Shown here one piece after another: positions 4,474 through 21,501 of a stretch of DNA of 49,552 nt. The DNA comes from a bacterium CG_4_9_14_3_um_filter_65_15 (lineage in GTDB: Bacteria; Krumholzibacteriota; Krumholzibacteriia; LZORAL124-64-63). Under the pieces are notes generated by a model. It did no database searches. It was not told the origin of the DNA and saw only the letters and a list, made by a program, of their open reading frames with translations. The position numbers were made by a program, and so were the translations under genes. The stretch's first letter is position 1, and each line of letters opens with the position of its first letter. The DNA lies in NCBI GenBank assembly GCA_002790835.1, contig PFVX01000063.1:1-49552 (forward strand), given 5' to 3'.

Positions 4474-4890
4474 ATGAAGACCAAGCTGTTGTGTCTGGCC
4501 ATGTTAATTCTTCTGTCCCTGGTTGCCGCCGCCGGGACATCCGCGGCTGATCCCGACCCTTCATCGGCCTCCATGCGGCCTGTGGATTCCCCCACCAAAG
4601 CGGAAATCGCCGCCATCACCGAGTTGATCAAGGAACACCGGCAGAATCTTCGCGAACTCCTGACCCTGGCCGAATCCCTGGAGCCGTCCCCTGCCCGGGA
4701 CGACGTCCTGGCGAAGATCCAGGCGGCGAAATCCGGGATGGAAGTCCGCATGATCGAAGCCAGGATCCGCTATGCGACGGAAGCCGGCCAGTGGGAGCGC
4801 GTGAGCGCCTTGCAGGAAACGGCGAAGAAGTTGCGCGCACCCCATGCTTCTTACGTGACCGAACAGACCGAGGCGGAGGTGGAAAAATGA
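4474..4890 (+). CDS. Small exported helical protein of unknown function
   Basis: A 138-aa protein with a clear signal peptide (MKTKLLCLAMLILLSLVAAAG, cleavage near TSA-AD). The mature part is almost wholly helical and charged, with heptad-like stretches (EIAAITELIKEHRQNLRELL...) that could form a coiled coil. No family is recognised. The ATG at 4474 is chosen over an upstream frame extension because GGAGG sits six bases before it and the signal peptide starts there. Its stop codon overlaps the ATG of the next gene (ATGA), so it is translationally coupled to the large secreted HEYGH protein and may be its chaperone, inhibitor or partner; that role is inferred from coupling alone. Confidence 0.75.
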   Translation: MKTKLLCLAMLILLSLVAAAGTSAADPDPSSASMRPVDSPTKAEIAAITELIKEHRQNLRELLTLAESLEPSPARDDVLAKIQAAKSGMEVRMIEARIRYATEAGQWERVSALQETAKKLRAPHASYVTEQTEAEVEK

Positions 4891-7800
4891 ACACCACCTC
4901 ACGGCTCCAAAACCTCTGCGTGATGATCTTGCTCGGATTGGCCTTGTTGGCCGCTCCGGCGGGAGCCGGCGTGGACCACTCACCCCTCAAGCTCCGCCTG
5001 AAGCAACCGCCGCGGGCCGCCAAGGCCTGGGAATCCTTCCAGGATGTGTTCGTGGTCCTGGCCGGAGCCGATGTCAAGGTGACGGATATCGCCTTCACCG
5101 GCAAAGGCTGGCAGGCCCGACAATTCGCGGGACCCGGCGACATCTTCCTGACCAGGGGCCAGATCCTCGAGATCCCCTTCGCTGCGACGCCGACGGATCC
5201 CTCCCAGCCGTTGGGCATCAGCTACAAGGTCGAAGGGTACTCCTTCCATGCCACGGTGAACATCGGCGCCGACAAGCTCGCGGACCTGACGGCCCCGGCC
5301 CGGCTCGTGCCCGACAAGGGTTCCAAGGTCGTCGCCCGGGACCAACGTTGGCCCGAACGGACCTATGCGGAAATCGCGGAAAGCCAGAAGAACTGGGGAG
5401 AGAAACAGCTCTCCGACGATCCCAACAAAACTCCCGGTGACAAGGCCCGCACCATCACCGTGCGCGGCACCAACGGCTACTGGCGATACGAAAACCGGGG
5501 AACCCCGGCGGCCCGCCCCACCTGGGAGCCAAGTTCCCAGATCGCCGTCTATATCATGGATGAAGATACGGGCTTCGACGACGTGCTTGGCTTCGCGTAC
5601 GCCAACGCCGACGGAACATTCGAAATTTCCTTCACCTGGGACCCCTGCTACCTGTGCGAGGACAACCCGGACATCTACGTCGAGACCCTGGCCCTGGATG
5701 CCAACGTGGATGTCCAGACCACCTGGCTGGAATGGACCTACGGCTGGGACTCCTGGGTCGAGGACGACTTCACGGGTACCGAGCTCAATTTCGGCGGTTC
5801 CATGCCCGACAAGAACGTGCCCGCCGCCCATCTCTTCCAGATCTATCACCGCGCCGCGAACATCTTCGAAGATCAGGGATATGCGATGGAGCGCATCGAT
5901 ATCCAGTGGCCGGAAGACGACCCTCCGTCCTACTACAACCCCGTGTTCAACGAGATCCACATCGATAAGGGTTCCGAGTGGAACGAGGGCACGTACCTGC
6001 ACGAGTACGGCCATTTCTGGGACGACCTCTACTCCCTCAGCGGCTGGCCCGACTACGACAACGGGATCTGCAACGTGGGCGGCGAACCCAGCCATTGCCA
6101 ATGGTGCCAGGAAAACGACTCGCCCACCGTGGTCAGCGAAGCCTTTGCCACCTACGTCGCCTATCTCCTGGGAGACGAGCTCAACAATTTCCTGCCGAAG
6201 CCCGACGTCTTCCGGTACACCGAAAACCTCGGGGAGTGCTACGACAACCTTGGCCAGCCATGCCCCTGCGACCCCCTCATGACCGAAGGCTTCCAGACCG
6301 CATTCTGGGTCGATGTGGCCGATGACCTGAACGAGAACGACCAACGTGTCGACCCGCTCCACTCCGATGTCTTGACCCTGAGCGGCTGGACCCTGATGAG
6401 CATCGCCGACATGCAGGCCCCCCAGAGCGCTGCGGCCTACTACGCCGAGCTCGTGGCCCGGTATCCCCAGTACAAGGAAGAACTGTGGGAAACGGCCATG
6501 AACAACGGGCAGGACTACGATGACTTTCCGCCACCCAGGATTTCCGACCTGACCAGCGCCACCCACACCGTCAACATGCCCTCACCCGACCAAACGGTGG
6601 AACTGACCTGGAGTACACCCCAGGACGACGCCTCCGGCGTATCCGGCTATTCCTATGTGATTACCCAGTTCCCCGGCACCCCCCCGGCCTCGTCGTCCCC
6701 CACCATTGGGGACGTCAATTTCCTGAACACCCCGCCCATCCGCGCCGGAACCTGGTACATCAACATCGCCACCTTCGACCGGGCGGGAAACAAGTCCCAG
6801 AATTTTGCCACCTTCGGCCCGGTCGTCATCCGTGAACCTTACCCGGCCGACCTCCGTCCCCAGGGTTCCTCCAGCTGGGAACAACCCCTGGTGGTGTACC
6901 AGAGTTGGTATTCCGGCGGCCCCATGAACCTTTCCCCCAACCTCCTCGGCGGCCACGCCCTCAACACATATTTCGCCATGAGCTTCTACAACAACGGGGA
7001 ATCCGGTTTCAGTGAAGTGACCAACATGGACACGTCATTGGATGGTGTTATCATCGACACCCTGCCCATGCCGGGAATGTCCGATTTTTCCTACACCGCG
7101 CGGGTGAACTACGCCCAGCGGCCTATCGACGGCGGCCGTCACACCATCGGGATGGTTCTCGATTCCGGGGAAACCCTTCCGGAAACCGACGAGACCAACA
7201 ACACCTTCGGGGCCCAGTACACCTGGAGTCCGCCTGCCCTGACGACGGGAACCAGGATTACGGGAACGGCCCCGCCGGACCCCTTCGGCGGTATCGCCGA
7301 ATTCGGCGGGTGGTACTACAACGCCAAGGGCTACACTTTCGACAATTCCGCCAACTGGGAGGCCGTGTCCTGCACCGCCAACAACACCAACTATGACTAC
7401 GACCTCCGGCTTCACCAGCCACGCACTTCGAACACCACCGGTTTCGGTGAATATGAGGCCTACTCCCGGCGACCGGCCGGCGCGCTGGATGTCGTCCTGA
7501 TCAACCGGCATATGCTGGCGGCCCAAACCTGGAACGTCGGCGTCATCGGCGATCCGGTTCAAAACCCGGCAAGCTTTCCGAGCTTCACCCTCGACCGGGT
7601 GGCCAACCAGACCATCCTGCCCCTGGGATCCCATGCCTGGTCCTGGGCCAGTTCCGAGCGACTCTCGCTCAAGGAATTCCGGCTCTTCACCCTGGATTCC
7701 AACGACCTGACCCTCACCCTGACCACCAACGCACCCCAGAAGAAGGTCCACATGGGCTGGTTCGGCCCCGCCTTTTCCCGCGGGCCCCTGGACGAGGCCA

Positions 7801-9395
7801 CCCAGACCGTGACCACCGACGCGACGGGCACGGCCGTCATGCGCATGGACAACTTGGGATTGAACATGCTGGGGTATCATTGCCTCGCGATCTATCGCGA
7901 TCCCTCCGATGGCACCACCACCATGAATCTCGAGTTGACCATCGCCCAGACTCCACCGGATCTCATTCCCGTGGTGCCCGAGGTCTGGATCGCGCCCCTG
8001 GTGCCGAATCATCTCCAGATGGCCGCTGGTGTCATGCCCGACACCCTGTTCGGAAACACGTTCCTGACGGGCGGCACCTACCTGAACCAAGCCGTCACGA
8101 ACATCGGCGGGCTCGACGCCTTCGGCGTGCGGTCGCAGGTTTACCTCGACGGAAAACCGTTCACCCCGGAGGTCGACTGGGACCGGGTGAATGAGCTCCA
8201 GGTGGCCACCAACATCGGAACCCAGTTCCATTCCCTTCGCGGCGGCCGCCACACCCTCAGCCTGCACGTGGATCACGGGGACTCGGTGACCGAAGGCGAC
8301 GAGACCAACAATATCTATGGCGCCCAATGGGTGTGGTCTCCCCTCAACCTGACTTTCGGGAATACCACCTTCCGTCCGCTTGCCGTCGACCACCGGGGCG
8401 GGTTTGAAGACATCACCGCCATCGAGCCCGTATCCGACAACTGCGACGGTCTTCGCCTCCCCGCCCCGACCACCGAACAACCCGGCAACTGGCAACTCGT
8501 CGCCGCGATCGCCCCCGATTCCACTTTCCTGAATCTGCAGCTCCACGAGATCGCCGGCGGGGTGAAGGACGGATTCTCGATTACAACCCGGCTGCACAAC
8601 AGCAACTGGCTTCCCGGCGGAACCAGCTACATCCTCATCAACAATCGCCGCACCCCCAAGCGGGCCTTCGACGTCGGCATCGTCGGCGGCGTCGGGACTG
8701 GCGGTTATTACGCGGAGGCGGTGAATTCCACGGACCTGGGTTCAAATCCGACCGGATCCCAGGAAGCCCGCAAGATGGGGCCCATGGAAATCGCCCACAT
8801 CTACGAGATGGAACTCGAACCCGGCGCCTACACGGTGCAGGTCGCCAATTACGAGAAGAGTCTCAACTGGGGCTTGGCCGTCCATTGCGATTCCACCATT
8901 TACAACCCCATCTATCAACGACGCAGCGCCGCCACGATCGGGGCGGCCTGGACCAATCCTCCCGGTGTGGACGAGCAGGTGACTTTCACCGCCGATTTCA
9001 CCGCGAAATACTGCATCGTGGTGTTCCGGCCCGACAGCCGGGACATCCAGGATGGCGGATCCTATGTCCTCAGCATCCTGCATGGGTTGTCCGGCGTCGG
9101 GGATCCCCCGCGCATCGAACGCTCCGCGCTGACGGGGATCTACCCCAACCCGTTCAACCCGCAGACGACCATCGCCTTCGACCTCGTGAAATCCGGCCGA
9201 ACCCGCGTGGACGTCTATGATGTGCGCGGTCACCGGATCAAGAGCCTCTGGCAGGGGACCATGGAAGCCGGATCGCACCGGTTGCCCTGGAACGGGCGCG
9301 ACGATCGCGGCGCCAACGTGGCCAGCGGGGTCTATTTCGTGCGGCTGGTGGGGGATGGATTCAGCGATACGCGCCGGGCCGTGCTCGTCGAGTAG
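4887..9395 (+). CDS. Large secreted HExxH metallopeptidase-like protein with CARDB repeats and C-terminal sorting tail
   Basis: A 1,503-aa exported protein (signal peptide MNTTSRLQNLCVMILLGLALL..., start set by the ATGA overlap and a GGAGGT site). After a segment that looks like a transthyretin-type beta domain (YIMDEDTGFDDVLGF), HEYGH occurs at residues 372-376 with SEAFATY (Glu418) downstream, the layout of a gluzincin-like zinc peptidase. Following parts are an FN3-like module (about 551-648), two CARDB-like repeats (ETDETNN near residue 770, EGDETNN near 1140) and a terminal domain beginning IYPNPFNPQTTIAF and ending RAVLVE. Such tails serve as FlgD-like/sorting domains in FCB bacteria. 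Peptidase activity is likely but unproven; the rest of the protein looks like adhesive beta structure. Confidence 0.85.
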   Translation: MNTTSRLQNLCVMILLGLALLAAPAGAGVDHSPLKLRLKQPPRAAKAWESFQDVFVVLAGADVKVTDIAFTGKGWQARQFAGPGDIFLTRGQILEIPFAATPTDPSQPLGISYKVEGYSFHATVNIGADKLADLTAPARLVPDKGSKVVARDQRWPERTYAEIAESQKNWGEKQLSDDPNKTPGDKARTITVRGTNGYWRYENRGTPAARPTWEPSSQIAVYIMDEDTGFDDVLGFAYANADGTFEISFTWDPCYLCEDNPDIYVETLALDANVDVQTTWLEWTYGWDSWVEDDFTGTELNFGGSMPDKNVPAAHLFQIYHRAANIFEDQGYAMERIDIQWPEDDPPSYYNPVFNEIHIDKGSEWNEGTYLHEYGHFWDDLYSLSGWPDYDNGICNVGGEPSHCQWCQENDSPTVVSEAFATYVAYLLGDELNNFLPKPDVFRYTENLGECYDNLGQPCPCDPLMTEGFQTAFWVDVADDLNENDQRVDPLHSDVLTLSGWTLMSIADMQAPQSAAAYYAELVARYPQYKEELWETAMNNGQDYDDFPPPRISDLTSATHTVNMPSPDQTVELTWSTPQDDASGVSGYSYVITQFPGTPPASSSPTIGDVNFLNTPPIRAGTWYINIATFDRAGNKSQNFATFGPVVIREPYPADLRPQGSSSWEQPLVVYQSWYSGGPMNLSPNLLGGHALNTYFAMSFYNNGESGFSEVTNMDTSLDGVIIDTLPMPGMSDFSYTARVNYAQRPIDGGRHTIGMVLDSGETLPETDETNNTFGAQYTWSPPALTTGTRITGTAPPDPFGGIAEFGGWYYNAKGYTFDNSANWEAVSCTANNTNYDYDLRLHQPRTSNTTGFGEYEAYSRRPAGALDVVLINRHMLAAQTWNVGVIGDPVQNPASFPSFTLDRVANQTILPLGSHAWSWASSERLSLKEFRLFTLDSNDLTLTLTTNAPQKKVHMGWFGPAFSRGPLDEATQTVTTDATGTAVMRMDNLGLNMLGYHCLAIYRDPSDGTTTMNLELTIAQTPPDLIPVVPEVWIAPLVPNHLQMAAGVMPDTLFGNTFLTGGTYLNQAVTNIGGLDAFGVRSQVYLDGKPFTPEVDWDRVNELQVATNIGTQFHSLRGGRHTLSLHVDHGDSVTEGDETNNIYGAQWVWSPLNLTFGNTTFRPLAVDHRGGFEDITAIEPVSDNCDGLRLPAPTTEQPGNWQLVAAIAPDSTFLNLQLHEIAGGVKDGFSITTRLHNSNWLPGGTSYILINNRRTPKRAFDVGIVGGVGTGGYYAEAVNSTDLGSNPTGSQEARKMGPMEIAHIYEMELEPGAYTVQVANYEKSLNWGLAVHCDSTIYNPIYQRRSAATIGAAWTNPPGVDEQVTFTADFTAKYCIVVFRPDSRDIQDGGSYVLSILHGLSGVGDPPRIERSALTGIYPNPFNPQTTIAFDLVKSGRTRVDVYDVRGHRIKSLWQGTMEAGSHRLPWNGRDDRGANVASGVYFVRLVGDGFSDTRRAVLVE

Positions 9396-9446: not shown

Positions 9447-12400
9447 ATGGCATCGCACCGCAGCAGGATTTCCGTTTGGATGGGGGTGGCCGCTCTGGCG
9501 GCGACCTTCTTTGCTCATTTCGTCCAGGCCGCACCGGCCGACCCCCTGTTTTCGGCCCTGAGGGATTCATTCAACGCCCAGGTGGCCGACCGACGCTACG
9601 ACGCCGCCGTCGCCTCATCGCGCCGGTTGGTGGCGGGACTTGACAGCCTCGCCGTCGAATCGACCGCTCCTTCGGACCTGGCTTCCGGTCTGGAAATGCT
9701 GGCGCGCAGCCTGCGCTTGTCGGGCAAGTCGCGGAGCGAGGAAACCCTGGCGATCGCCCGACGCGCCGAGGCCCTCTGCCGAAACCATCCGGAAATCGAC
9801 GCCGACGTCCGGGCCGGCTGTTTCAACACCCTGGGCTTGATTCACTTTCAGCGCTCCGAATCCGATCCCGCCCTGGCGCTGTTCCGGGAGGCGACGGAAA
9901 TCTGGCGGGAAGAACGCGGGAGCCAGGATCAGCGGGTAGCCACCGGGCTGAACAACCAGGGCCTCGTCCTCGAAGAGATCGGGCGGGATGTCGAGGCCAA
10001 GGAAGCGCTGGAGCAGGCGGCGGACATCTACCGGACGCGCCGAGATGAACCGTCCTACCGGGCCAAGCTGGCCCAGACCACCATGGCCCTGGCCAAGCTG
10101 GACATCAAGCTCGGCGACTACGACGAGGGCCTGCGGCGCGGGGAATCCTCGGTCGCCGTCTATCGGGAACAATTCGGGCCGGACGACGCGCGGGTCGGAT
10201 CCGCCCTCGCCGATCTCGGGGCCCTGGCGCGAACCACCGGTGAACTCGACCGGGCCCAGCAACTCTACGACAAGGCCATCGCAATCCTGGTTGCCGGTTA
10301 CGGACCCCGCCATCCGGAAGTGGGCCGGATCCTCAACAATCTCGGCAATGTCCACGCCGATCTGGGGAACATCGCCGCGGCCAGGGATTGTTTCGAACGC
10401 GCCCTGGCCATCACCGAAGAGCAGGAAGGGCCGGACTCCCCTCGCACGGGGGTCCGTTTGCTGAACCTGGGGTCGATCATGTTCGAGCTCGGGGACGGGC
10501 AGTTGGCGCTGGCCCACCTTCGCCGGGTGGAATCCATCTTCCAGTCCCGGCTCGGCCCGGACCATCTCTACATGGGATACGCCAGCGAGGAACTGGGTCA
10601 TGCCCTGGCCGCCCTGGAGGGACCGGAAGCGGGCATATCCCGGATCGAGGCCGCCCGCGCCATCTTTGAGGCCAAACTGGGGTCGGATCATCTCGCCGTG
10701 GCCGAAATCGACAACCAGTTGGGGGAATGGGCGACCGACCTGGGCAAGCTCGATGAGGCGGCCCGCCACCTGGACAAGGCCCGGGCCAGCGTGGATCGCA
10801 TCTTTCCCGCGGGGCACCCCCTGCTCCTCGAAATCCTGATCAACCAGGCACGGGTAGCCCGGCTGGGCAATGACGCCGGAGCTGCTCTGACCATTCTGGA
10901 AAATGCAGCGCCCCTGGGCCAAACCCTGCTGGGGTCCGACCACCCCGCCATGGCCCGGCTCAAGCGCGAAAGAGGGTTGGCCCAGCACCGACTCGGGCGC
11001 GATTCCGATGCCCTGAAATCCACCCTGGCCGCCGAAGAGATCAGCCGCCGGAATTTCATCCTGGCCGCCAGCGCCTTTGAGGAATCCCGGGCGCTCGTGC
11101 TGGCCGAACGCCGGCTGGTGGGGTTGGACGACGGCATCACGTACTGCCTTTCCTCCCCCTCGCAGGCGGGAAAAAGCGAAGACGTGGTCGCGCTGTGGGG
11201 GCAGATCATTCGCTCACGCGGCCTCGTCCAGGAAATCATGGCTCGCCGCCGGCGTGATTCCGGAGACCGCCTTCGTGGCGCCGTTACCGACCTGGCCGAC
11301 AGCCTGCGGCTGGCCGCCCGGGATCTGGCCCAGTTGGCCATCGCCGGACCCGGTGAGATGGATCCCGCAAGCTATTCCGTCGAACTGGACAGGGCGCGGG
11401 CCCGCTGGGACGACCTGGATCGCAGGCTGGGGGTGGTCTACCGCGACCACGTTTCCGACTCTTTCCTGCGGACCATCGACCTGGACGATGTGCGCGCAGG
11501 AATGCACGGCTCCGAGGCCCTCGTGTCCTACAAGATGTTCCGATCCGAGGGGCGGGAGAATGGGATGGTCGCAGTGGTCCTGGACTCCGCAACCGCTGCT
11601 CCGCGCCTCGTCGACCTGGGACCCGCTGCGGTCATTGAAGAGCGCGTTGCGGCGTGGTTGCGGGACCTGGCGGGATCGGCCGACTCACCGACCATCGGCG
11701 AGAAAACATACCGGGTCTCCGGCAGGGGTGTCGCCCACCTCGTCTGGGACTCCCTGGGCCTGGCGCCCGACCTGCAAAACGTGGTCGTCGTCCCCGACGG
11801 AGTTCTCAACCTGATCGATTTCCAGACCCTTCCGCGGGGGGAAGACGGCTACCTCATCGACGGCGCGACCCTGGTCAAACTGCTCGGTTCCGAACGAGAC
11901 CTGGTCAAGGGACAGGATTCTCCGCCGAGCAGATCCTTGCTCGTCATGGGCGGCGCCGACTTCGGCGCTCTCCCGCAGGAATATCCAGCCGTCCATCCCA
12001 CCCGGGCGGGACCGTTCGGAGCCCTCCGATTCACCGCCCTGCCGGGGTCGCGGCAGGAAGCCGAAACCGTCGCCGACCTGTGGCGCACGCTCGAGGCCGG
12101 CGAGGTGTTGTGCCTGACCGGTGCGCAGGCCAGCGAGGCCGCCTTCAAAATGAACGCGCCCCGGTTCGACATCGCCCACCTCGCCACCCACGGTTTCTTC
12201 CTGGATCGGACCGCCCCGCAGGGGTCTTCCACCACCCGGGGGGTGGGCCTGGTCGGGCCCGACACGGCGTCGGCGACCGTTTCCCACGAGCCCTTGAATC
12301 CCCTTCTCCTGGCCGGACTTGCCTTTGCCGGGGCCAACCGGGACCCCATCGGCGACAGCCCGGAAGACGGGATCCTGACCGCCTATGAAGTCGCCGCCAT

Positions 12401-12779
12401 GGATCTGGACCGGATGGCCCTGGCCGTCCTGTCGGCGTGTCGCAGCGGAGCGGGAACGATTCGTGACGGGGAAGGCATCATGGGGCTGCGCAGGGCCTTC
12501 GCCACGGCGGGAGTTCCCAACCTGCTGATGGCCCTGTATCCGGTTCGCGACGATGTGGCCTCGGCCTGGACGCGGCGATTCTACGCTTTCTTCCTGAACG
12601 ATCGGGGGGGGGTGCATGAAGCAACTCGCGCCGCTTCCCGGGAAATCCTGGCCGAGCGGAGGCGGAATCATCTTTCCGACCATCCTGCGTTCTGGTCGCC
12701 GTTCGTGGCCGTCGGACCCGGAGTTGTCGGAACCTCAGCGCGGGTTGGCCAGATCGATGCGCCTGACCCAGATCGCTGA
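9447..12779 (+). CDS. Exported TPR-CHAT domain protein (caspase-like)
   Basis: An 1,110-aa protein with an N-terminal signal peptide (about residues 1-28), a long series of tetratricopeptide repeats (about 40-540, for example LNNLGNVHADLGNIAAARDC), a helical linker and a C-terminal CHAT domain (about 780-1095). The CHAT dyad is intact: His915 in HLATHGFF and Cys998 in LSACRSG. CHAT proteins are caspase-family cysteine peptidases (separase relatives), often switched on through their TPR part. Export to the periplasm or surface is inferred from the signal peptide. The ribosome site is weak. Its 3' end overlaps by 45 bases the oppositely oriented Ser/Thr kinase gene, tying it physically to the sigma factor-kinase pair. 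Confidence 0.9.
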   Translation: MASHRSRISVWMGVAALAATFFAHFVQAAPADPLFSALRDSFNAQVADRRYDAAVASSRRLVAGLDSLAVESTAPSDLASGLEMLARSLRLSGKSRSEETLAIARRAEALCRNHPEIDADVRAGCFNTLGLIHFQRSESDPALALFREATEIWREERGSQDQRVATGLNNQGLVLEEIGRDVEAKEALEQAADIYRTRRDEPSYRAKLAQTTMALAKLDIKLGDYDEGLRRGESSVAVYREQFGPDDARVGSALADLGALARTTGELDRAQQLYDKAIAILVAGYGPRHPEVGRILNNLGNVHADLGNIAAARDCFERALAITEEQEGPDSPRTGVRLLNLGSIMFELGDGQLALAHLRRVESIFQSRLGPDHLYMGYASEELGHALAALEGPEAGISRIEAARAIFEAKLGSDHLAVAEIDNQLGEWATDLGKLDEAARHLDKARASVDRIFPAGHPLLLEILINQARVARLGNDAGAALTILENAAPLGQTLLGSDHPAMARLKRERGLAQHRLGRDSDALKSTLAAEEISRRNFILAASAFEESRALVLAERRLVGLDDGITYCLSSPSQAGKSEDVVALWGQIIRSRGLVQEIMARRRRDSGDRLRGAVTDLADSLRLAARDLAQLAIAGPGEMDPASYSVELDRARARWDDLDRRLGVVYRDHVSDSFLRTIDLDDVRAGMHGSEALVSYKMFRSEGRENGMVAVVLDSATAAPRLVDLGPAAVIEERVAAWLRDLAGSADSPTIGEKTYRVSGRGVAHLVWDSLGLAPDLQNVVVVPDGVLNLIDFQTLPRGEDGYLIDGATLVKLLGSERDLVKGQDSPPSRSLLVMGGADFGALPQEYPAVHPTRAGPFGALRFTALPGSRQEAETVADLWRTLEAGEVLCLTGAQASEAAFKMNAPRFDIAHLATHGFFLDRTAPQGSSTTRGVGLVGPDTASATVSHEPLNPLLLAGLAFAGANRDPIGDSPEDGILTAYEVAAMDLDRMALAVLSACRSGAGTIRDGEGIMGLRRAFATAGVPNLLMALYPVRDDVASAWTRRFYAFFLNDRGGVHEATRAASREILAERRRNHLSDHPAFWSPFVAVGPGVVGTSARVGQIDAPDPDR

Positions 12780-14432
12780 CCCCTTGGTTTTGCGGAACGC
12801 GGCCAGGGCGCGCTCGGCGCGGGCGATGCGACTGGAATCCGCACCGGCGGTCACCGTCGACGGATCGGGAGCGAGAATCCCCACGCCCCGGAGACGATCG
12901 GTCTGCGCGGATGGAATCCGGTAGGCGAACTGGACCTGATCTCCCTGGGCCGGCGGCGGAACATCGGCCAGAAACTCCTCCAGCAACGGCAGGGGATCCG
13001 GACTTCCCACCACCAGGAAATGCTCCTGCCCGCCCGCGCTGGAAACCGTCCAGGCATAGGGTTCCCCCTCGCGCCCGACCGGCAACCGCGTGGTCCCCGC
13101 GGGCAGGGGGCCGGCCTTGACCTTGTCCGACGAGGGATACAGCAGGAAGACGTTCCCCGTGTCGTCCTCATTGAGGACATAGATGTGCAGGGGCTGGTTC
13201 GCTTCGAGGTTCAGGAAGAGGCGATCCCCTGGACGCACCAGGGAGCCGGGGTCCAGCACACGGGGCGGGCTCGCCGAGGCGAGGTACATCGACGCCGTCG
13301 CGACGATGGGCAGGGGCGCCGGAGGCCGGATCACCTCCCGGTACAACAGGCCCGAGAGGATGAGCAAGACCAGGACGGGAACGAGGGCCTTGGCCAACAC
13401 CGCGGAAAATTCCGGCCGCTTGCCGGCCGAGCCGCGCTCAACCGGTTTTTTCGCATCCGACCAGTCGATCAGGGCCTGCAGGCATTCATCCGCCGACCGA
13501 TAGCGCCCGGCGGGGTCGAGGCAGGTCGCCCGCTCGACGATGCCCAGGAAGCCTTCATCCAGATCCGGACGTCGGCGGCGAAGAGGAGAAACGCTCCCTC
13601 CCGCAGCATGGGATCGCAGATCCTCCAGGCTGGCCCCGGTCAACGGGTAGGACCCGCTGACCATATGATCCAGCATCACACCCAGGCCGTAGATGTCTCC
13701 CGCCGCGGACGGTTGCCCGCCGCCCAGCACCACCGGATCACAATAGAGCGGCGTGCCCCGAGCGGGATAGCCGTCCCCTTCCCCCGGGTGGGGAACACCG
13801 ATGCCCAGATCCATCAGCAGGATGCGCCCGTCGTACTCGCACATCACGTTGGCCGGTTTGAGATCCCGGTGCAGGATGCCCGCCTGGTGAATGGCCACCA
13901 GGGCCCGGCAGATCTCGATTCCGATGGCGACGGCCTGGCGTTCACTGCGCAGCCCCTGCGTCGCCAGCACCCGGTCCAGGGTGTGGCCCGTGATGAGTTC
14001 CATCCAGAACCCGGCGCGTCCATCCTGGATATCGGCGCCATAGATGGTCACGATGTTCGGATGATCCAGGGCCGCCAGGCGCCGGGCCTCATCCAGGGCG
14101 GTCGGCCCCGCATCGTGCGCGGACCCGGCCAGGACCTTCAGGGCGACTTCCCGTTGCAGATGGGGGTCGAGAGCACGATAGACCACGCCGTCGGTGCCGC
14201 TGCCCAGGATTTCCAGCAGCTCGAGATGTCCCCAGCGCAGGGGTTCCTGCCCGGCATCGGTCCTCGCCAGGGGCATGTGGACCCGGCTGTAATATTCCGC
14301 GATTTTCGCGATGGAGGCCAAAGGGGTCGGGCTGTCGGAGCGGGCTGCGAGGTCGGAATCCGATTCCTCGGCCCGGAGCTTGTCCGCGATGCTCAGGCTC
14401 ATCTGCAGGAGATCGTGCGGTTGGTTACTCAT
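12735..14432 (-). CDS. Membrane Ser/Thr protein kinase with DUF4384-like C-terminal domain
   Basis: A 565-aa Hanks-type kinase. Visible motifs: glycine loop GSGTDGVV (77-84), Lys99 in VALKVL, HRDLKPAN (188-195) and DLG (208-210) in place of the usual DFG. A single transmembrane segment lies at about 347-364. The outer part (about 375-560) resembles DUF4384 (GDRLFLNLEANQPLHIYVLN), a beta domain often attached to kinases and CHAT proteins; it may sense an external signal. The start ATG overlaps the stop of the sigma factor gene by eight bases (ATGAGTAA), so the two are coupled. The last 45 bases lie over the 3' end of the CHAT gene. Kinase activity is expected because catalytic residues are present. 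Confidence 0.93.
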   Translation of the reverse strand: MSNQPHDLLQMSLSIADKLRAEESDSDLAARSDSPTPLASIAKIAEYYSRVHMPLARTDAGQEPLRWGHLELLEILGSGTDGVVYRALDPHLQREVALKVLAGSAHDAGPTALDEARRLAALDHPNIVTIYGADIQDGRAGFWMELITGHTLDRVLATQGLRSERQAVAIGIEICRALVAIHQAGILHRDLKPANVMCEYDGRILLMDLGIGVPHPGEGDGYPARGTPLYCDPVVLGGGQPSAAGDIYGLGVMLDHMVSGSYPLTGASLEDLRSHAAGGSVSPLRRRRPDLDEGFLGIVERATCLDPAGRYRSADECLQALIDWSDAKKPVERGSAGKRPEFSAVLAKALVPVLVLLILSGLLYREVIRPPAPLPIVATASMYLASASPPRVLDPGSLVRPGDRLFLNLEANQPLHIYVLNEDDTGNVFLLYPSSDKVKAGPLPAGTTRLPVGREGEPYAWTVSSAGGQEHFLVVGSPDPLPLLEEFLADVPPPAQGDQVQFAYRIPSAQTDRLRGVGILAPDPSTVTAGADSSRIARAERALAAFRKTKGSAIWVRRIDLANPR

Positions 14433-15024
14433 CGCCCATCACCTGGGCCAGCTTGGCCAGCGCCCTTCCGACCGCCATCCGGGCGGCATCCGGAGTTGGT
14501 TTGCCGAGGATCCCGGCCAGTTCGGCATAACCGATCCCCAGTTCGATCCGCCCCACCACCGCCGCCTGATCCCCTGTCGGCAGAGTGGACAGCGCGCGGT
14601 CGTATCGCTCCAGGGTGTCCCGACCGATGAGATCTTCCAGCGGGTTCGGCGCCCGGTCTCCCGGTTCCAACGCACCCGACTCCAGGGGCGCCATGAGGTC
14701 CGGGCGCCGCGCGACGTCCCGAATCCGGTTCAAGATGGCCGTGCGCAGGTAGACCGGGAAAGCCCCTTCGTTCACGGCCTGGATGCTGGAAAGGTTGTCC
14801 ATGGTGCGCAGCAGGCTGTCCTGGACCAGATCCTCGGTATCCAGAAGGCCGCGCGCGTGGCGGGGCAGACGCCCCCGCGCCCAGCGCATCATCCGCGGAA
14901 GCATGCGGGCGCACAATTCGTCGAGAGAAGCGGAATCGCCTTGCCGGGATCTTGCCACCAGTTCGTGGGTGGAAAGCAGATCCTGATTCGTGGGGTTGCC
15001 CGAACCGGGGTCCCTGCTGGTCAT
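14425..15024 (-). CDS. ECF-type RNA polymerase sigma factor
   Basis: A 199-aa sigma-70 family protein: region 2 with ARGLLDTEDLVQDSLLRTM (core binding and -10 recognition) and a C-terminal region 4 helix-turn-helix (IGYAELAGILGKPTPDAARM). No region 1 or 3 is present, as in extracytoplasmic-function factors of the group partnered with Ser/Thr kinases. The ATG at 15024 is preferred over an upstream extension because an AGGGA ribosome site precedes it and the extension is low-complexity. No anti-sigma factor is nearby; the coupled kinase gene is the likely regulator, by phosphorylation of the sigma factor, as known for other kinase-linked ECF groups. That link is inferred from gene order. Confidence 0.88.
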   Translation of the reverse strand: MTSRDPGSGNPTNQDLLSTHELVARSRQGDSASLDELCARMLPRMMRWARGRLPRHARGLLDTEDLVQDSLLRTMDNLSSIQAVNEGAFPVYLRTAILNRIRDVARRPDLMAPLESGALEPGDRAPNPLEDLIGRDTLERYDRALSTLPTGDQAAVVGRIELGIGYAELAGILGKPTPDAARMAVGRALAKLAQVMGDE

Positions 15025-15165
15025 CCTCGATCCCTGCCCACTCGACGGACCGCGCCAACGAACAACCGCCCCGCATGTAGCCCAATCCCCCACCGTCTAT
15101 TCTTAAGAGACGGGCCAGTGCGGAAAACCGAACAGGAATCCATCAACATCAGCTTTCCGCCCGGA

Positions 15166-16518
15166 TCACCCACGGAGGAACCGGGCCACCAGGTTTCCCA
15201 AAACCGTGCGGCGATAGGCCGCGGATGCGCGCACGTCGTCAATGGGCGTGATCTCATCGGCGGCCAGAGCGGCGGCCTCGTCGGCCAGATTCGGCGCGGA
15301 AATGGCGCGACCCTCCAGCCAGGCGGTGGTCCGGGGCAGCAGCGCGATGGTCGGGGCCACGCTGCCGGCGACCAGGCGCACGTCGCGCAAGCTCCCCTGT
15401 CCGTCGATGCGGGCGCACGCGGCCAGATTCACCCGCGCAATGGACTGGGCCCGTCGCGTGCCCGCCTTGAAAAAGGCCTGCCGCAGGTCAGGGGCCGGCG
15501 TGGGCAAATCCACCGCGGCGATCAACTCGTCGGGACGGCAGTCGCAGTCACGGTATCCGCGGTAGAACTCCGTCACCGGAACCCGGCGTTCGCCTTGGCG
15601 CGAGACCAGCACCACGACACCGGCCAAAGCCGCCAGCGCCGGCACCAGGTCCGCGCCCGGCGAGGCGTTGGCCAGGTTGCCGCCCACGGTGCCCATGTTC
15701 TGCACCGCCGGTGCGCCCACCAAGCGGGCGGCCTCAGCCATGGCGGGCCAGATCCGCGTAACATCCGGTGAGTCAATGAGGTCACTGTAGCTCGTCGCCG
15801 ATCCGATGCGGACCCCCGCCGCGGTGACCTCGATTCCCCGCAGTTCCTGCAGGCACGAGACATCAAGCACCCGGTCGGGCACGGGCAGGCCCGCGTTGAA
15901 GGCGGCCATCAGGTCGGTCCCGCCGGCCAGGATGGTGCACGGCCCTGCGGCCCGATCAGCCAAAGCCTGGTCGAGCCGGTCGGGGATGAGTACATGAACC
16001 GCATCGTCGGGCGCCGGGACCGGCAGACCGGATCCGTCGACCGGCGCCGGGGCGTCGACGACCGGGACGCCCGCGGCGAGCTGCACCGCCTCGATCACCC
16101 GACCGTATCCCGTGCAGCGGCACAGGTTGCCGGCCAGCCCTTCACGGATTTCTGTTTCGGTGGGCTGCGGCGACGCGTTCAGCAAAGCCCGCGAGGCCAT
16201 CAGCAACCCCGGCGTGCAGAACCCGCACTGGACCCCGCCCGTTTCCACGAACGCGGCCTGCAGCGGGTCGGGATGATCGCGATCGCCCAGTCCCTCGATG
16301 GTCACGATGCCGCGGCCGTGGGCCTGGAAGACCGGCATCTGGCAGGCGTTCATGAGGCGGCCGTCGACGTGCACGGCGCAGGCGCCGCACTCGCCCTCGC
16401 CGCAGCCTTCCTTGGTTCCGGTCAGGCCCAGATCCTCGCGCAGGACGTCCAGGAGGCGGCGCATGGGCCGCACGTCCAGCTCCCGCCGCTGGCCGTTGAC
16501 GGTGCAGACGATCTTCAC
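15166..16518 (-). CDS. Molybdenum hydroxylase 2Fe-2S/FAD fusion subunit
   Basis: A 450-aa electron-transfer subunit of a xanthine dehydrogenase family enzyme. Residues 1-155 hold two 2Fe-2S clusters: a plant-type site (EGCGEGECGAC...C) and a C-terminal site (CGFCTPG ... CRCTGYG). Residues about 175-450 form the FAD domain with ILAGGTDLM and NMGTVGGNLANASPGADL. In most three-subunit enzymes these parts are separate proteins; here they are fused, as in XdhA of two-subunit bacterial xanthine dehydrogenases. It starts with GTG, overlapping the previous stop by four bases (GTGA). It is the last gene of a five-gene leftward operon and pairs naturally with the molybdenum subunit just upstream. Confidence 0.93.
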   Translation of the reverse strand: MKIVCTVNGQRRELDVRPMRRLLDVLREDLGLTGTKEGCGEGECGACAVHVDGRLMNACQMPVFQAHGRGIVTIEGLGDRDHPDPLQAAFVETGGVQCGFCTPGLLMASRALLNASPQPTETEIREGLAGNLCRCTGYGRVIEAVQLAAGVPVVDAPAPVDGSGLPVPAPDDAVHVLIPDRLDQALADRAAGPCTILAGGTDLMAAFNAGLPVPDRVLDVSCLQELRGIEVTAAGVRIGSATSYSDLIDSPDVTRIWPAMAEAARLVGAPAVQNMGTVGGNLANASPGADLVPALAALAGVVVLVSRQGERRVPVTEFYRGYRDCDCRPDELIAAVDLPTPAPDLRQAFFKAGTRRAQSIARVNLAACARIDGQGSLRDVRLVAGSVAPTIALLPRTTAWLEGRAISAPNLADEAAALAADEITPIDDVRASAAYRRTVLGNLVARFLRG

Positions 16519-18743
16519 GGCTGCAACTCCTGCAGGTGCGCCAGCAGTCGGTCCGGCGTCATGGGGATGAAATCGGGCGCGGTGCCCAGGGCGTGTTCCA
16601 CCGCCGCGGCCAACGCCGGAGCGCCGCCGTTCATGGGCAGTTCGCCCAGACCCTTGGAGCCGTACGCGCCGCGGGGCGAAGGCTCCTCAGCCAGTTTCAC
16701 CGTGTACGCGGGCGCATCCAGACAGGTGGGGATGATGTAGGTGGCCAGACGGTCGTTGAGGTAGCGTCCGCCGTCGAGGCGGACCTCTTCCAGATAGGCC
16801 CAGGCCAGGCTCTGCAGCATGCCGCCTTCGATCTGGCCCACGCACAGCACCGGGTTGATGGCCTTGCCGATCTCCGCCACCACCGTCACACGTTCGGGGC
16901 GGATCTCCCAGGTGTCGGTGTCCACCGCCGTTTCCACCACCGTGGCCATCCAGGCGTAGCCCTGGTAGGCATCGCCGTGGTGGTGCTGCTGGTCCCAGCG
17001 GATGGACGAATCGGGTTCGTAGCGGCCCTCCCCCACCAGGGGTTCGCCCGCCGCCGCCCGTGCGGACCACGCCGCTCGGGCATCGGTACCGTGGGCATCG
17101 GTACCGTGGGTCAGCGCCTGTTCGGCGAGATCACCGCACGCCTGCACCAGGACTTTGCCCACCACCATGGTGGTGCGCGAGGCGACCGTCGGCCCGCTGT
17201 CGGGAACGGCGCCGGTATCTGGCTGGTGGTAATGCACCGCTTCGAGGGGCAGGCCCAGGGCCTCGGCGGCGATGGCCGGCAGGACGGTCTCGGCGCCCTG
17301 GCCCATCTCCACGCAGCTGCAAAGCACGGTGGCGGTGCCGTCGGCCTCGCCGCGCACGTGGACCACCGCATCGATCTTGTCCTCGCCGTCACCGGTGAAT
17401 CCCGCGCCGTGGTGAACCAGCGAAACGCCGATGCCCCGGCGCTCAGGGCCGGTTGCGGACGCGTTGGCCGCAGCGATCTCCTCGCGCCGATTTTCGTATC
17501 CTGACAGTTCGATGGCCCGTTCCAGCACCAGGGAGGCGGCCGTCCCGCCTTCCGGCAACACCTGGCCGTGGGGCAGGGCGTCGCCCGGCTTCAGGATGCT
17601 GCGCCGGCGCAGGGCGAGGGGATCTTCCCCCAGTTCGCGCGCGATGCGATCCATGTGGCGCTCGGCGGCGAAAATGCTCTGCGGCACGCCGAAGCCGCGA
17701 AACGCCCCGTTGGGCGGAGTGTTGGTCGCCACGGCCCGGCCGCGGATCCGCACCAGCGGGATGTCGTAGGAACCGGCGGCGTGCAGGATGGCCCGCGAAA
17801 GCACCACCGGACTGAGCGTCGTGAAGGCGCCCGCATCGAGCACCACGTCGATGTCAGCAGCCAACAGCCGGCCGCCGGGCGCCACGGCCGTGCGCTGGAT
17901 GGTGCGCGAAGGGTGCCGCTTGGTCGAGGCGATGATGTCCTCGTGGCGCCCATAGATCATGGCCACCTCGCGGCCGCTCGCCATGGCCAGCACCGCCGCC
18001 TGCAGGGCAATGACCGAGGGGTAATCCTCCTTGCCGCCGAAGGCGCCGCCGGTGGGCGCCTGGCGCACCACCAGCCGGTCGCGCTCCAGTCCCAGCGCCC
18101 GCGTCAGGGCGTTGAGCACGTAGAAGGGGCACTGCAGCGAACCCAGGATCTCCACGCCGCCGTCGGGACGCGGGGTGGCCGTCACGCCCTGGGGTTCGAG
18201 ATAGATGTGTTCCTGATACCCGGTGTGGTAGACGCCTTCGATGATCCGGCCCCGGGCCATGGCCGCCGTGAAGGCGTCCATGTCGTCGGGCGCGATGGTG
18301 TAGTCGGCGATGAGGTTGTCCTCACCCCAGATGACGCGATCCCCGCGCAGGGCGTGTTCGATGCTCAGCACCGCCGGCAATTCCTCGATGTCCGGCCGCA
18401 GGGCCGCCAGCGCCCCAGCCAGGGTCGCCGGGTCGGGCGCCGCCACCAGGGCCACGGCCTGGCCGACGAAGGCGACCTCGTCGACCGGGAGCAACGGCAG
18501 ATCCTCGCGGATCATGGCCACCGTATTGGGGCCGGACAAGTCGCCCGCGGTGATCACCACGACCTGCGACCAATCGAAACCGCCGTCGCGGACCAGTCCC
18601 CGCAACCGGCCGCGGGCCACCGGCGAACGCACCGCTCCGCCAAACCAGGCGCCGGGCCGCGGGATATCCGCGATGAATCGCGTGCGCCCGGTAACCTTGT
18701 CCCACGCGTCGCGGCGCGGCAGGGGTTTGCCGACGACCTTCAT
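16515..18743 (-). CDS. Molybdenum hydroxylase large subunit, second enzyme
   Basis: A 742-aa molybdopterin-binding subunit of the xanthine dehydrogenase family. Recognisable parts are an aldehyde oxidase a/b-hammerhead domain (about 1-105), the GGAFGGKED segment near the Mo cofactor, and the catalytic glutamate Glu701 in KGLGELPM near the C-terminus. It would hydroxylate a heterocycle or aldehyde using water; the substrate is not evident. Translation may begin at GTG 18746 or ATG 18743, both overlapping the previous stop (GTGATG); the ATG is reported. A short direct repeat near 17080-17110 encodes a duplicated GTDAHGTDA segment. Together with the fused iron-sulfur/FAD protein downstream it forms a complete enzyme. 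Confidence 0.92.
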   Translation of the reverse strand: MKVVGKPLPRRDAWDKVTGRTRFIADIPRPGAWFGGAVRSPVARGRLRGLVRDGGFDWSQVVVITAGDLSGPNTVAMIREDLPLLPVDEVAFVGQAVALVAAPDPATLAGALAALRPDIEELPAVLSIEHALRGDRVIWGEDNLIADYTIAPDDMDAFTAAMARGRIIEGVYHTGYQEHIYLEPQGVTATPRPDGGVEILGSLQCPFYVLNALTRALGLERDRLVVRQAPTGGAFGGKEDYPSVIALQAAVLAMASGREVAMIYGRHEDIIASTKRHPSRTIQRTAVAPGGRLLAADIDVVLDAGAFTTLSPVVLSRAILHAAGSYDIPLVRIRGRAVATNTPPNGAFRGFGVPQSIFAAERHMDRIARELGEDPLALRRRSILKPGDALPHGQVLPEGGTAASLVLERAIELSGYENRREEIAAANASATGPERRGIGVSLVHHGAGFTGDGEDKIDAVVHVRGEADGTATVLCSCVEMGQGAETVLPAIAAEALGLPLEAVHYHQPDTGAVPDSGPTVASRTTMVVGKVLVQACGDLAEQALTHGTDAHGTDARAAWSARAAAGEPLVGEGRYEPDSSIRWDQQHHHGDAYQGYAWMATVVETAVDTDTWEIRPERVTVVAEIGKAINPVLCVGQIEGGMLQSLAWAYLEEVRLDGGRYLNDRLATYIIPTCLDAPAYTVKLAEEPSPRGAYGSKGLGELPMNGGAPALAAAVEHALGTAPDFIPMTPDRLLAHLQELQP

Positions 18744-21052
18744 CACTTGGCCCGGCCTTCCCTCAGGGCCATCAGCACCTTCTCGGCCGTCAACGGCAGG
18801 TCGCGCACGCGCACCCCGACGGCGTTGAACACCGCGTTGGCGATGGCCGCGGGCGGGGTATCGATGCCGATCTCACCCACGGACTTGGCGCCGAAGGGAC
18901 CGCTGGGCTCGTGGCTGGCGGCCAGTTCCACCGTCAGCCGGGGGATGTCCTGGCGGGCCGGAATCCGGTAGGTCATCATGTCGCCCGTCAACAGCGTGCC
19001 GCGCTTGCCGTAGCGCACCTCTTCGGTCAGGGCCATGCCGATGCCCTGCGCCAGGCCGCCTTCGACCTGCACTCGCGCCAGGTTGGGGTTGATGGCCTGC
19101 CCGCAATCGACCACGGCCACGAAGTCGATCAGGTCGACCTTGCCGGTGCCCAGGTCCACCTCGACCTCCGCGAAGGCGGCCAGGTACGGCGGCGGCGACT
19201 TCTCGCACAGGTGACTGCCGGTGGTGCAGAGTTGTTTCTGGTTCTGGCTGTAGAGCAGCCGGGTGGACAGGTCCTCCAGGGAGATGGCGCCGTCGGGACC
19301 GCGCACCTCGGCGCCGTCGAACACCGCGTCTTTTTCCGCACAGCCCAGCATGGCCGCGCCCTCGGTGAGCAGGGCCGCCCGCATCTTCTGCGCAGCCGTG
19401 CGCACCGCGTGGCCCGACACGTAGGTCGTGCTCGAGGCGTAGGCGCCGGTGTCGAAGGGCGTGCGGTCGGTGTCCGATGAGTAGACCTTGATCAAATCCG
19501 TGGACACGCTCAGGGTCTCGGCGGCGATCTGGGCCAGGATGGTGTCGCTGCCGGTGCCCAGATCGGTGGCGCCGATCAGCAGGTTGAACGAGCCGAAGTC
19601 GTTGAGCTTCAGCGTGGCGGCGGCCATATCGATGCCGGGGATCCCCGACCCCTGCATGGCCAGGGCCATGCCCACGCCCCGCACCTTCTCCGGCCCGGCT
19701 TCACGGCGCGGGTATTTTTCGCCCCAGCCGATCAGCTCCATGCCGCGGTCGATGCACGCGGGCAGCTTGCAGCTGTCGATGGTCATGGCCACGCCCTCGG
19801 TGCCCTCGCCCATGATGGCGAAGATGGGCGAGGTCTCGCCCTCGGCGATCATGTTCATGCGCCGCAGTTCCACCGGATCCAGGTCCAGCTCATGGGCCAG
19901 TTCGGCCAGCGCCGATTCCAGCGCGTAGTTGCCCTGGATGGCCCCGTAGCCGCGGAAGGCCCCGCCGGGAACGCGGTTGGTGTAGACGGTCTTGCCGCCG
20001 AAACGCACCGCTTCGACCTTGTTGTAGAGCGGCAGGGTCTTGGCGCCCGCCACCATGAACACGGTCAGGGCGTGCTCGCCGTAGGCCCCGGTGTCCGACA
20101 GGGCCTGCATGTCGATGGCGCGCAGATGTCCGCCGCGATCGGCGGCCAGGGTGATGTCCATGCGCATGGGATGCCGCGTGTTGGTGGCCGCAAAGACCTC
20201 CCGCCGCGAGTACACCATGCGCGCAGCCTTGCCCGTTCGCCGGGTGACCAGGCCGCAGAGCAGTTCGCCGTGGATCATCTGCTTGCCGCCGAAGCCGCCG
20301 CCGATGCGCGGCTTGTTCACGCGGATCTCACCCACGGGCATTTCCAGGGCGCGGGCCATGATGCGGCGCACGTGCCAGGGGGTCTGGGTCGAGGTCAGGA
20401 CGTTGAGTCGCCCGTGCAGATCCAGCCAGGTGGCGCAGACCATGGGCTCGAGCGCAACGTGCTGCTGGGCCTGGGTGTAGTAGGTGCGGCGCAGCACGAC
20501 CTCGGCGTCCTGCACGACCTTGTCCACGTCGCCCACGTGCATGGCGTAGGCGCTGGCGATGTTGCGCGTCGGTTCGAAGCCGATGGGGAAGTTCTCGTGG
20601 ATCTCCGGTTCGGAGTGCAGCACCGTGGCGTGATCCTCGGCCTGCTCGAAATCCAGCACCGGCTCCAACACCTCGTAATCCACCACCAAGGCTGCGAGGG
20701 CGGCCACGGCCGCCGCCTCGCTATCGGCCGCCACCACCGCGACCTCGTCGCCCACGTGGCGCACGTATTCATCCAGGATGAAACGATCGCGCGGCGAGGG
20801 CTCGGGGTGCCCCTGGCCGGCGCGGGTCACCGCGACGCGCGGCACGTCGCGCCAGGTCAGCACGCAGGCCACACCGTCGATGGCCTCGGCGGCCGCGGTG
20901 TCGATGGACTTCAGGCGCGCGAACGCGTGGGGACTGCGCAGGGCGCGCACGACCAGGGCCGGGCGCGGCGCCAGGTCATCGGTGTATGCGGGGCGACCCA
21001 GGGCCAGGCCCACGCCGTCGATCTTGGGCAGGGATTTCCCGACCTCGTTCAT
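18743..21052 (-). CDS. Molybdenum hydroxylase large subunit, first enzyme
   Basis: A 769-aa molybdopterin subunit. It shows the hammerhead domain, GGGFGGKQMIHGE, the Mo-proximal segment NRVPGGAFRGYGA, and the catalytic Glu727 in AKSVGEIG. The strings NRVPGGAFRGYGAIQG and QQHVALEP are typical of XdhA-like and clostridial purine/nicotinate hydroxylases, but active-site residues that fix the substrate cannot be assigned with confidence. The ATG at 21052 overlaps the stop of the 2Fe-2S gene (ATGA); a much longer frame upstream is only the antisense-like shadow of that gene. It is about as distant from the second large subunit as two separate enzymes are, not a recent duplicate. Confidence 0.93.
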   Translation of the reverse strand: MNEVGKSLPKIDGVGLALGRPAYTDDLAPRPALVVRALRSPHAFARLKSIDTAAAEAIDGVACVLTWRDVPRVAVTRAGQGHPEPSPRDRFILDEYVRHVGDEVAVVAADSEAAAVAALAALVVDYEVLEPVLDFEQAEDHATVLHSEPEIHENFPIGFEPTRNIASAYAMHVGDVDKVVQDAEVVLRRTYYTQAQQHVALEPMVCATWLDLHGRLNVLTSTQTPWHVRRIMARALEMPVGEIRVNKPRIGGGFGGKQMIHGELLCGLVTRRTGKAARMVYSRREVFAATNTRHPMRMDITLAADRGGHLRAIDMQALSDTGAYGEHALTVFMVAGAKTLPLYNKVEAVRFGGKTVYTNRVPGGAFRGYGAIQGNYALESALAELAHELDLDPVELRRMNMIAEGETSPIFAIMGEGTEGVAMTIDSCKLPACIDRGMELIGWGEKYPRREAGPEKVRGVGMALAMQGSGIPGIDMAAATLKLNDFGSFNLLIGATDLGTGSDTILAQIAAETLSVSTDLIKVYSSDTDRTPFDTGAYASSTTYVSGHAVRTAAQKMRAALLTEGAAMLGCAEKDAVFDGAEVRGPDGAISLEDLSTRLLYSQNQKQLCTTGSHLCEKSPPPYLAAFAEVEVDLGTGKVDLIDFVAVVDCGQAINPNLARVQVEGGLAQGIGMALTEEVRYGKRGTLLTGDMMTYRIPARQDIPRLTVELAASHEPSGPFGAKSVGEIGIDTPPAAIANAVFNAVGVRVRDLPLTAEKVLMALREGRAK

Positions 21053-21501
21053 CGCCCACCCCCCAGGTACTTGCGCACCGCGCGCATCTGGCTCGTGTAG
21101 CCGCTGCAACGGCACATGTTTCCGGCCAGGTAGGACCGGATCTGCTCGTCGTCGGGTTGGTCCAACTCCTTCTCCATGGCCACCAGGGACATCACCAGGC
21201 CGGGGGTGCAGTACCCACACTGGTCGGCCCCTTCGGCGGCCATGGCCTCGCCGATGCGGCGGGCCTGATCCTGCACGCCCTCCACCGTCGTCACGGTGTG
21301 GCCGTCGACCCGCGCCGCCGGCACGGCGCACGACGGCACGGGCTTATTGTCCAGCAACACGGTGCACACCCCGCACGAGGCGGTGTCGCAGCCTTCCTTG
21401 GCCCCCACCAGACCATTGCGGCGCAGGGCCTGCAGCAGGGTCTCGGTCGGTTCGATCTCCCAGGTGACTTCGCGATCGTTGAGCGTGAAGACGATGGTCA
21501 T
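21049..21501 (-). CDS. Molybdenum hydroxylase 2Fe-2S subunit
   Basis: A 150-aa small subunit carrying two 2Fe-2S clusters: the ferredoxin-like site EGCDTASCGVC...C and the helical site CGYCTPG ... CRCSGY. It passes electrons from the molybdenum centre to FAD. Length and motif spacing are normal for stand-alone subunits (CoxS/XdhC type). The ATG at 21501 overlaps the stop of the FAD gene by four bases; the ribosome site lies inside that gene. It belongs to the first, three-protein enzyme of the operon. Confidence 0.95.
   Translation of the reverse strand: MTIVFTLNDREVTWEIEPTETLLQALRRNGLVGAKEGCDTASCGVCTVLLDNKPVPSCAVPAARVDGHTVTTVEGVQDQARRIGEAMAAEGADQCGYCTPGLVMSLVAMEKELDQPDDEQIRSYLAGNMCRCSGYTSQMRAVRKYLGGGR

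Follow-up and report, generated by a model that had tools for sequence, protein, structure and literature searches.

CHAT proteases are relatives of caspases and separase. The type III-E CASP system consists of the TPR-CHAT protein Csx29, the protein Csx30 and the extracytoplasmic function (ECF) sigma factor CASP-sigma, and in it Csx29 cleaves the sigma inhibitor Csx30 (PMC10028731). TPR-CHAT is also reported to regulate Cas7-11 through binding (PMC11089037). The Ser/Thr kinases (STKs) PknS and PknT phosphorylate ECF43 sigma factors, in the pairs EcfP/PknT and EcfK/PknS, and the groups ECF59, 61, 62, 217 and 283 have been proposed as STK-activated (PMC13147305, PMC8999054). In STK-linked groups outside ECF43 the acidic DAED-like motif is retained, and Ser/Thr can occur in or around it (PMC8999054). 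DUF4384 co-occurs in one protein with caspase homologues (orthocaspases) and with kinase domains (PMC7475262, PMC6426788). Here we describe genes for a TPR-CHAT protein, a membrane kinase with an outer DUF4384 domain and an ECF sigma factor in a window of 49,552 nucleotides (the whole stretch analysed), contig PFVX01000063.1 of the 3.39-Mb genome of the Krumholzibacteriota bacterium CG_4_9_14_3_um_filter_65_15. These three genes very probably form a functional signalling module. A literature search, with subscription papers mostly outside it, found no paper linking the CHAT domain, an ECF sigma factor and a threonine kinase.

The initial annotation had read the locus as one signalling unit, and its three genes and both gene overlaps are present in the sequence, as open reading frames (ORFs) with Pfam matches:

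14425..15024, minus strand: ECF sigma factor, 199 aa, from the ATG at 15024 to the stop at 14425 (Pfam and PDB profile matches)
14425-14432, minus strand: 8-bp overlap of the sigma and kinase genes, ATGAGTAA (sequence)
12735..14432, minus strand: transmembrane Ser/Thr kinase of the Hanks type, 565 aa, with DUF4384 in its C-terminal ectodomain (Pfam, residues, predicted transmembrane segment)
12738..13343, minus strand: predicted kinase ectodomain, residues 364-565 (202 aa), with DUF4384 at 400-480 (AlphaFold2 (AF2), hhalign)
12735..12779, no strand: 45-bp tail-to-tail overlap of the CHAT and kinase genes (sequence)
9447..12779, plus strand: TPR-CHAT cysteine-protease-like protein, predicted exported, 1110 aa (Pfam, dyad, AF2 model)
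9447..9536, plus strand: signal-peptide-like N-terminus of the CHAT protein, residues ~1-30 (hydropathy)

The CHAT protein passes the gathering score of CHAT (PF12770; 173.4 bits against 24, E 9.3e-51) and matches TPR_12 (2.4e-51). Its TPR region spans residues ~75-560 and its CHAT domain ~690-1090. The annotated dyad, His915/Cys998, lies in invariant alignment columns, and the His/Cys dyad is intact in 27/27 CHATs examined, distant ones included. The N-terminus MASHRSRISVWMGVAALAATFFAHFVQAAPADP has a hydropathy peak from residue 14, so the annotated signal peptide agrees with what hydropathy only can indicate; similar peaks are found in nearly all related CHATs with a readable start. Human separase is the first PDB fold match of the AF2 model (pLDDT 80.7) and Csx29 (7y9x) is among the others, with TM-scores that are low because of the long superhelix. 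The gene is convergent to the kinase gene and lies outside the sigma-kinase operon.

The kinase matches Pkinase (Pfam 2e-36) and passes the gathering score of DUF4384 (PF14326; 40.5 bits against 27, E 2.9e-10), and its catalytic residues are present (K99, E115, HRD 188-190 and D208 of DLG). A single hydrophobic segment, predicted as transmembrane (TM), covers residues 345-363 and is followed by the 202-aa ectodomain carrying DUF4384, which bears out the outer domain proposed earlier. This ectodomain is predicted as an Ig-like beta-sandwich (AF2 pLDDT 80.4, pTM 0.77). Its top PDB fold matches are RhoGDI-like Ig sandwiches (E 7.5e-3, TMq ~0.32), no match reached E <= 0.001 and Csx30 was not among the 50 best, so these weak matches give no functional hint. 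The sigma factor matches Sigma70_r2 over the Pfam cut-off (1.9e-6) and r4_2 under it (7.5e-4), and its PDB profile matches are ECF sigma factors. An in-frame GTG at 15093 is a possible longer start. The 8-bp overlap suggests that the sigma and kinase genes may be translationally coupled.

Related loci were sought in 80 genomes of the phylum. A profile from the alignment of the window-type sigma (A1) found 20 loci in 11 of them. A kinase gene follows the sigma gene in 19/20, the neighbouring kinase being divergent at L206; window-type sigmas thus meet the general STK-linked kind, in which an ECF gene adjoins a Hanks-type kinase gene. Fourteen of the kinases match the profile of the DUF4384 ectodomain. 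A CHAT gene (Pfam CHAT) adjoins the sigma-kinase pair in the window and at L065, L192, L197, L199, L202, L203 and L205, in four genomes: the host, G004, G038 (two loci) and G044 (four loci). The order is CHAT-sigma-kinase at L065 (one genome) and sigma-kinase-CHAT at the other six (two genomes), and at L193 the nearest CHAT is ~5.4 kb off. L195 and L201 are interrupted by a gap or contig end; the TPR gene of L195 enters a 100-N scaffold gap and this locus was left out of the counts. CHAT adjoins 8/12 DUF4384 kinases versus 0/4 kinases without DUF4384 (Fisher p 0.077), which is suggestive only of a tie between DUF4384 on the kinase and CHAT linkage. In Eisenbacteria, contig L113 carries sigma, kinase-DUF4384 and CHAT in one row, and at L084 a distance of 4.2 kb separates CHAT from sigma and kinase-DUF4384. 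In a Pirellulaceae contig (L151) a kinase-DUF4384 gene overlaps CHAT, with no ECF gene within 7 kb. The region 2.2 motif of the window sigma, LLDTEDLVQ, includes Thr63. All 20 aligned window-type sigmas (18 from the phylum and 2 from Eisenbacteria) share this residue, and 19 of them keep D/E-T-x-D. Two further gene arrangements were seen: a second sigma-like gene (motif DTTAVVHE) beside a TPR-kinase gene ~3 kb past the L065 trio (15233-18468), and a kinase domain fused to a TPR-CHAT region in one 2045-aa ORF of Chthoniobacterales (L087 1310-7447).

A second sigma type, A4, was found at 16 loci in 14 genomes, and carries R-x-D-W at the place of the Thr63 motif. Operons with this sigma have the order CHAT, sigma and a ~280-aa one-TM protein (L060-L064, L066, L067 and L208; L040, also of this type, is cut) or sigma, one-TM protein and CHAT (L211-L213). 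DUF4384 is over the cut-off in the one-TM proteins of L061, L062 and L063 and below it in L060, L064 and L212. The zinc motif zf-HC2, common in anti-sigma factors, matches weakly in L212 and over the cut-off in the host genome's second CHAT locus. Position, topology and the DUF4384/zf-HC2 motifs indicate that these proteins are probably anti-sigma-like. Their ectodomains are homologous to those of the kinases (hhalign probability 97.7, E 2.3e-12). On this comparison the module exists in two interchangeable versions, the kinase version of the window and an anti-sigma-like one. The CHAT tree places the window CHAT with L059 and L060 in a 100/100 clade, apart from the other kinase-type CHATs. L059 lies at a contig end with its neighbours unread; L060, the closest relative with readable neighbours, is of the anti-sigma type, which argues for an exchange of regulators while CHAT was retained. 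On this tree the kinase label must change 5 times, and starred branches force at least 3 of these changes; a deeper reading is limited by long branches and eight open forks.

Two further CHAT-sigma loci were noted. At L207 (8902-10657) only an N-terminal 196-aa piece of the CHAT is left and the sigma gene is kept, while the anti-sigma is shortened to its cytoplasmic part of 124 aa without TM segment or ectodomain, a possible joint decay. The host's second CHAT (L058 9737-14478, G000:C56) is lipoprotein-like, predicted exported and divergent from an ECF-like gene, and the zf-HC2 one-TM protein of this locus has an ectodomain other than DUF4384.

In the phylum, DUF4384 occurs 111 times and CHAT is found in 63/80 genomes. 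A listed CHAT lies within 5 kb of at least 16/23 DUF4384 genes that have an A1 or A4 sigma no further than 4 kb away, versus at least 1/88 of those without a module sigma nearby (Fisher p 5e-13, indicative only, as related loci were treated as independent). If the initial annotation were wrong, CHAT and the sigma-kinase pair were expected to be distributed independently; strong linkage was found instead. At least 18 listed CHATs are near the 36 sigma loci, where ~0.35 are expected, and 132/150 of the CHAT genes listed have neither sigma type nearby. The linkage of CHAT with sigma and DUF4384 is therefore strong but not obligatory. Nearly every genome also has DUF4384 in a ~600-aa frame away from CHAT and the module sigmas (e.g. 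G000:C64:62033-62263). Most DUF4384 genes without a module sigma nearby seem to be this gene, present once per genome, and it was used as an internal control. Beyond the phylum, 78 further CHAT loci were fetched by name. With a sigma profile built partly from matches in the same loci, ECF genes reach 6.4 per 100 kb within 1 kb of CHAT versus ~1 per 100 kb at 3-9 kb, and 15/21 of them lie within 3 kb (binomial p 0.005). Between sigma and CHAT there is a one-TM protein without recognisable DUF4384 at L089 and L101, and one with another outer part at L090.

Like type III-E CASP (Craspase), the locus ties a TPR-CHAT protein with a His/Cys dyad to an ECF sigma via a regulator, and the window CHAT model matches Csx29. 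However, Csx29 works intracellularly with Cas7-11 and target RNA, whereas the window CHAT looks exported, and regulation here goes through a membrane kinase or anti-sigma that carries DUF4384 outside, not through a soluble Csx30-like inhibitor. No CRISPR-like repeat array was detected in window 1-24000. Among a subset of window ORFs, PADLOC gave no match in seven neighbouring proteins and Pfam no CRISPR families in ten others. Membership in type III-E CASP, whose loci hold a Cas7-11 effector and a CRISPR array, was rejected on the absence of such an array and of defence-library matches among the scanned neighbours, and because the window regulator is a membrane kinase and the anti-sigma of relatives is membrane-bound. 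A known anti-phage defence system was also rejected, since PADLOC matches were limited to generic TPR models and generic kinase models (PD-T4-6, mad6). As in STK-activated ECFs, the ECF gene is beside the gene of a Hanks-type transmembrane kinase that has an outer domain, with no anti-sigma gene between, but the module here includes a CHAT gene and DUF4384. Unlike ECF43, region 2.2 keeps the DTxD acids (DTEDLVQ) and an invariant Thr instead of QTTA, and ECF43 membership was rejected; these acids and Thr63 fit the picture drawn for the other STK-linked groups (PMC8999054). Outer-side proteolysis is proposed to free the sigma as in RseA/DegS and RsiW (named in PMC10028731), although here a caspase/separase-like CHAT is the proposed protease and a kinase can serve as the regulator. 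Caspase-like peptidase genes also lie beside ECF sigma genes in EACC2-caspase systems with DUF1822 TPR genes, but in the passages of PMC8195603 consulted they pair the caspase with EACC2 and other partners and have no kinase or anti-sigma DUF4384 regulator. In contrast to orthocaspases and DUF4384 kinases, DUF4384 and the CHAT peptidase belong here to different proteins, which a sigma factor connects.

Across changing gene orders three components stay together: an exported-looking TPR-CHAT, an ECF sigma and a one-TM regulator whose DUF4384 domain is predicted to face the same compartment as CHAT. On its cytoplasmic side this regulator carries a Ser/Thr kinase, as in the window, or an anti-sigma-like domain. 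We propose that the TPR arm would recognise a substrate or stress signal and so let CHAT cut the DUF4384 ectodomain or engage it in another way. This event would alter the kinase, via dimerisation or release of inhibition, and the kinase would phosphorylate the neighbouring sigma, most plausibly at Thr63, as a switch of RNA polymerase binding. Where the regulator is an anti-sigma, such an event on the outside would free the sigma, as in regulated proteolysis of RseA or in Csx29 with Csx30. We assign a probability of about 0.5 to the proposal that the ectodomain is the target of CHAT and the sigma factor that of the kinase. It is favoured by the DUF4384 ectodomain on both regulators, the conserved dyad and the invariant Thr63, with further support from the intact catalytic residues of the kinase. 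The module itself is established by comparison of genomes; both biochemical steps, and the direction of the link between CHAT and sensor, we infer.

Several observations weigh against this chain. The invariance of Thr63 is confined to one sigma family and could be accounted for by kinship alone, and with the acidic residues of region 2.2 retained, unlike in ECF43, a phosphate there might be inhibitory instead of activating. At the CHAT-sigma loci L058, L089, L090, L095 and L101 no DUF4384 is recognisable in the regulator ectodomain. No CHAT is near the sigma and kinase-DUF4384 pairs L072, L194 and L196; given these and the many CHATs away from both sigma types, the single unit of the initial annotation stands as linkage kept in other gene orders and not as an obligatory association. 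The linkage counts, finally, fit equally well a CHAT that is the effector or output of the sigma, a possibility we regard as rather unlikely. DUF4384 would then sense an envelope signal alone, the kinase or anti-sigma would control the sigma, and the sigma would turn on the adjacent CHAT gene, whose protease would act on other envelope proteins. ECF sigmas commonly control adjoining genes, the window CHAT has its own orientation, and the pairs without CHAT agree with such an arrangement. By itself, though, it leaves unexplained why DUF4384 is retained when the cytoplasmic half changes. Upstream of 10 A4-type and 17 A1-type operons, a crude and weak test with some start sites estimated found no shared promoter motif: neither a 7-mer nor a 4+4 dyad exceeded shuffled sequences. 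This counts against sigma output and also against the proposed chain.

It is improbable that CHAT does not cut and serves the DUF4384 ectodomain as a TPR scaffold or ligand receptor: the long TPR region, and the binding-type regulation of Cas7-11 reported in PMC11089037, would agree with such a role, but the dyad is intact even in distant CHATs. A neighbourhood due to chance, with an unrelated CHAT gene next to an STK-ECF pair, could be imagined in the window, where the CHAT gene is convergent, not in the same operon and close behind a same-strand gene ending at 9395; the recurrent adjacency in other gene orders and families and the excess of CHATs near sigma loci make it highly improbable, and it was rejected on the co-localisation counts.

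Other features of the window were also noted. The gene upstream of CHAT, on the same strand (4791-9395), encodes a large secreted-looking protein of 1534 aa with CARDB and a T9SS-type/FlgD-Ig C-terminal domain, and ends 51 bp before the CHAT start. Behind the sigma gene there is a cluster of molybdenum hydroxylase subunits (xanthine/CO dehydrogenase type) in two similar sets (15166-22274). A TamB-like gene adjoins an Omp85/POTRA gene at 35646-41320.

We tentatively propose a previously undescribed envelope-signalling family, in which an exported separase/caspase-like CHAT protease would give the input on DUF4384 and interchangeable Ser/Thr kinase or anti-sigma outputs in the cytoplasm would lead to ECF sigmas. 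Csx29, which acts on a sigma inhibitor, is the sole bacterial TPR-CHAT with a worked-out sigma link. If the proposal is true, a second case, apparently exported and CRISPR-free, would suggest CHAT control of sigma factors as a general theme and DUF4384 as a docking or cleavage domain. The swap of kinase and anti-sigma around one outer domain would be a natural experiment with one input and two types of sigma control, in a module small enough for reconstruction in E. coli with a reporter.

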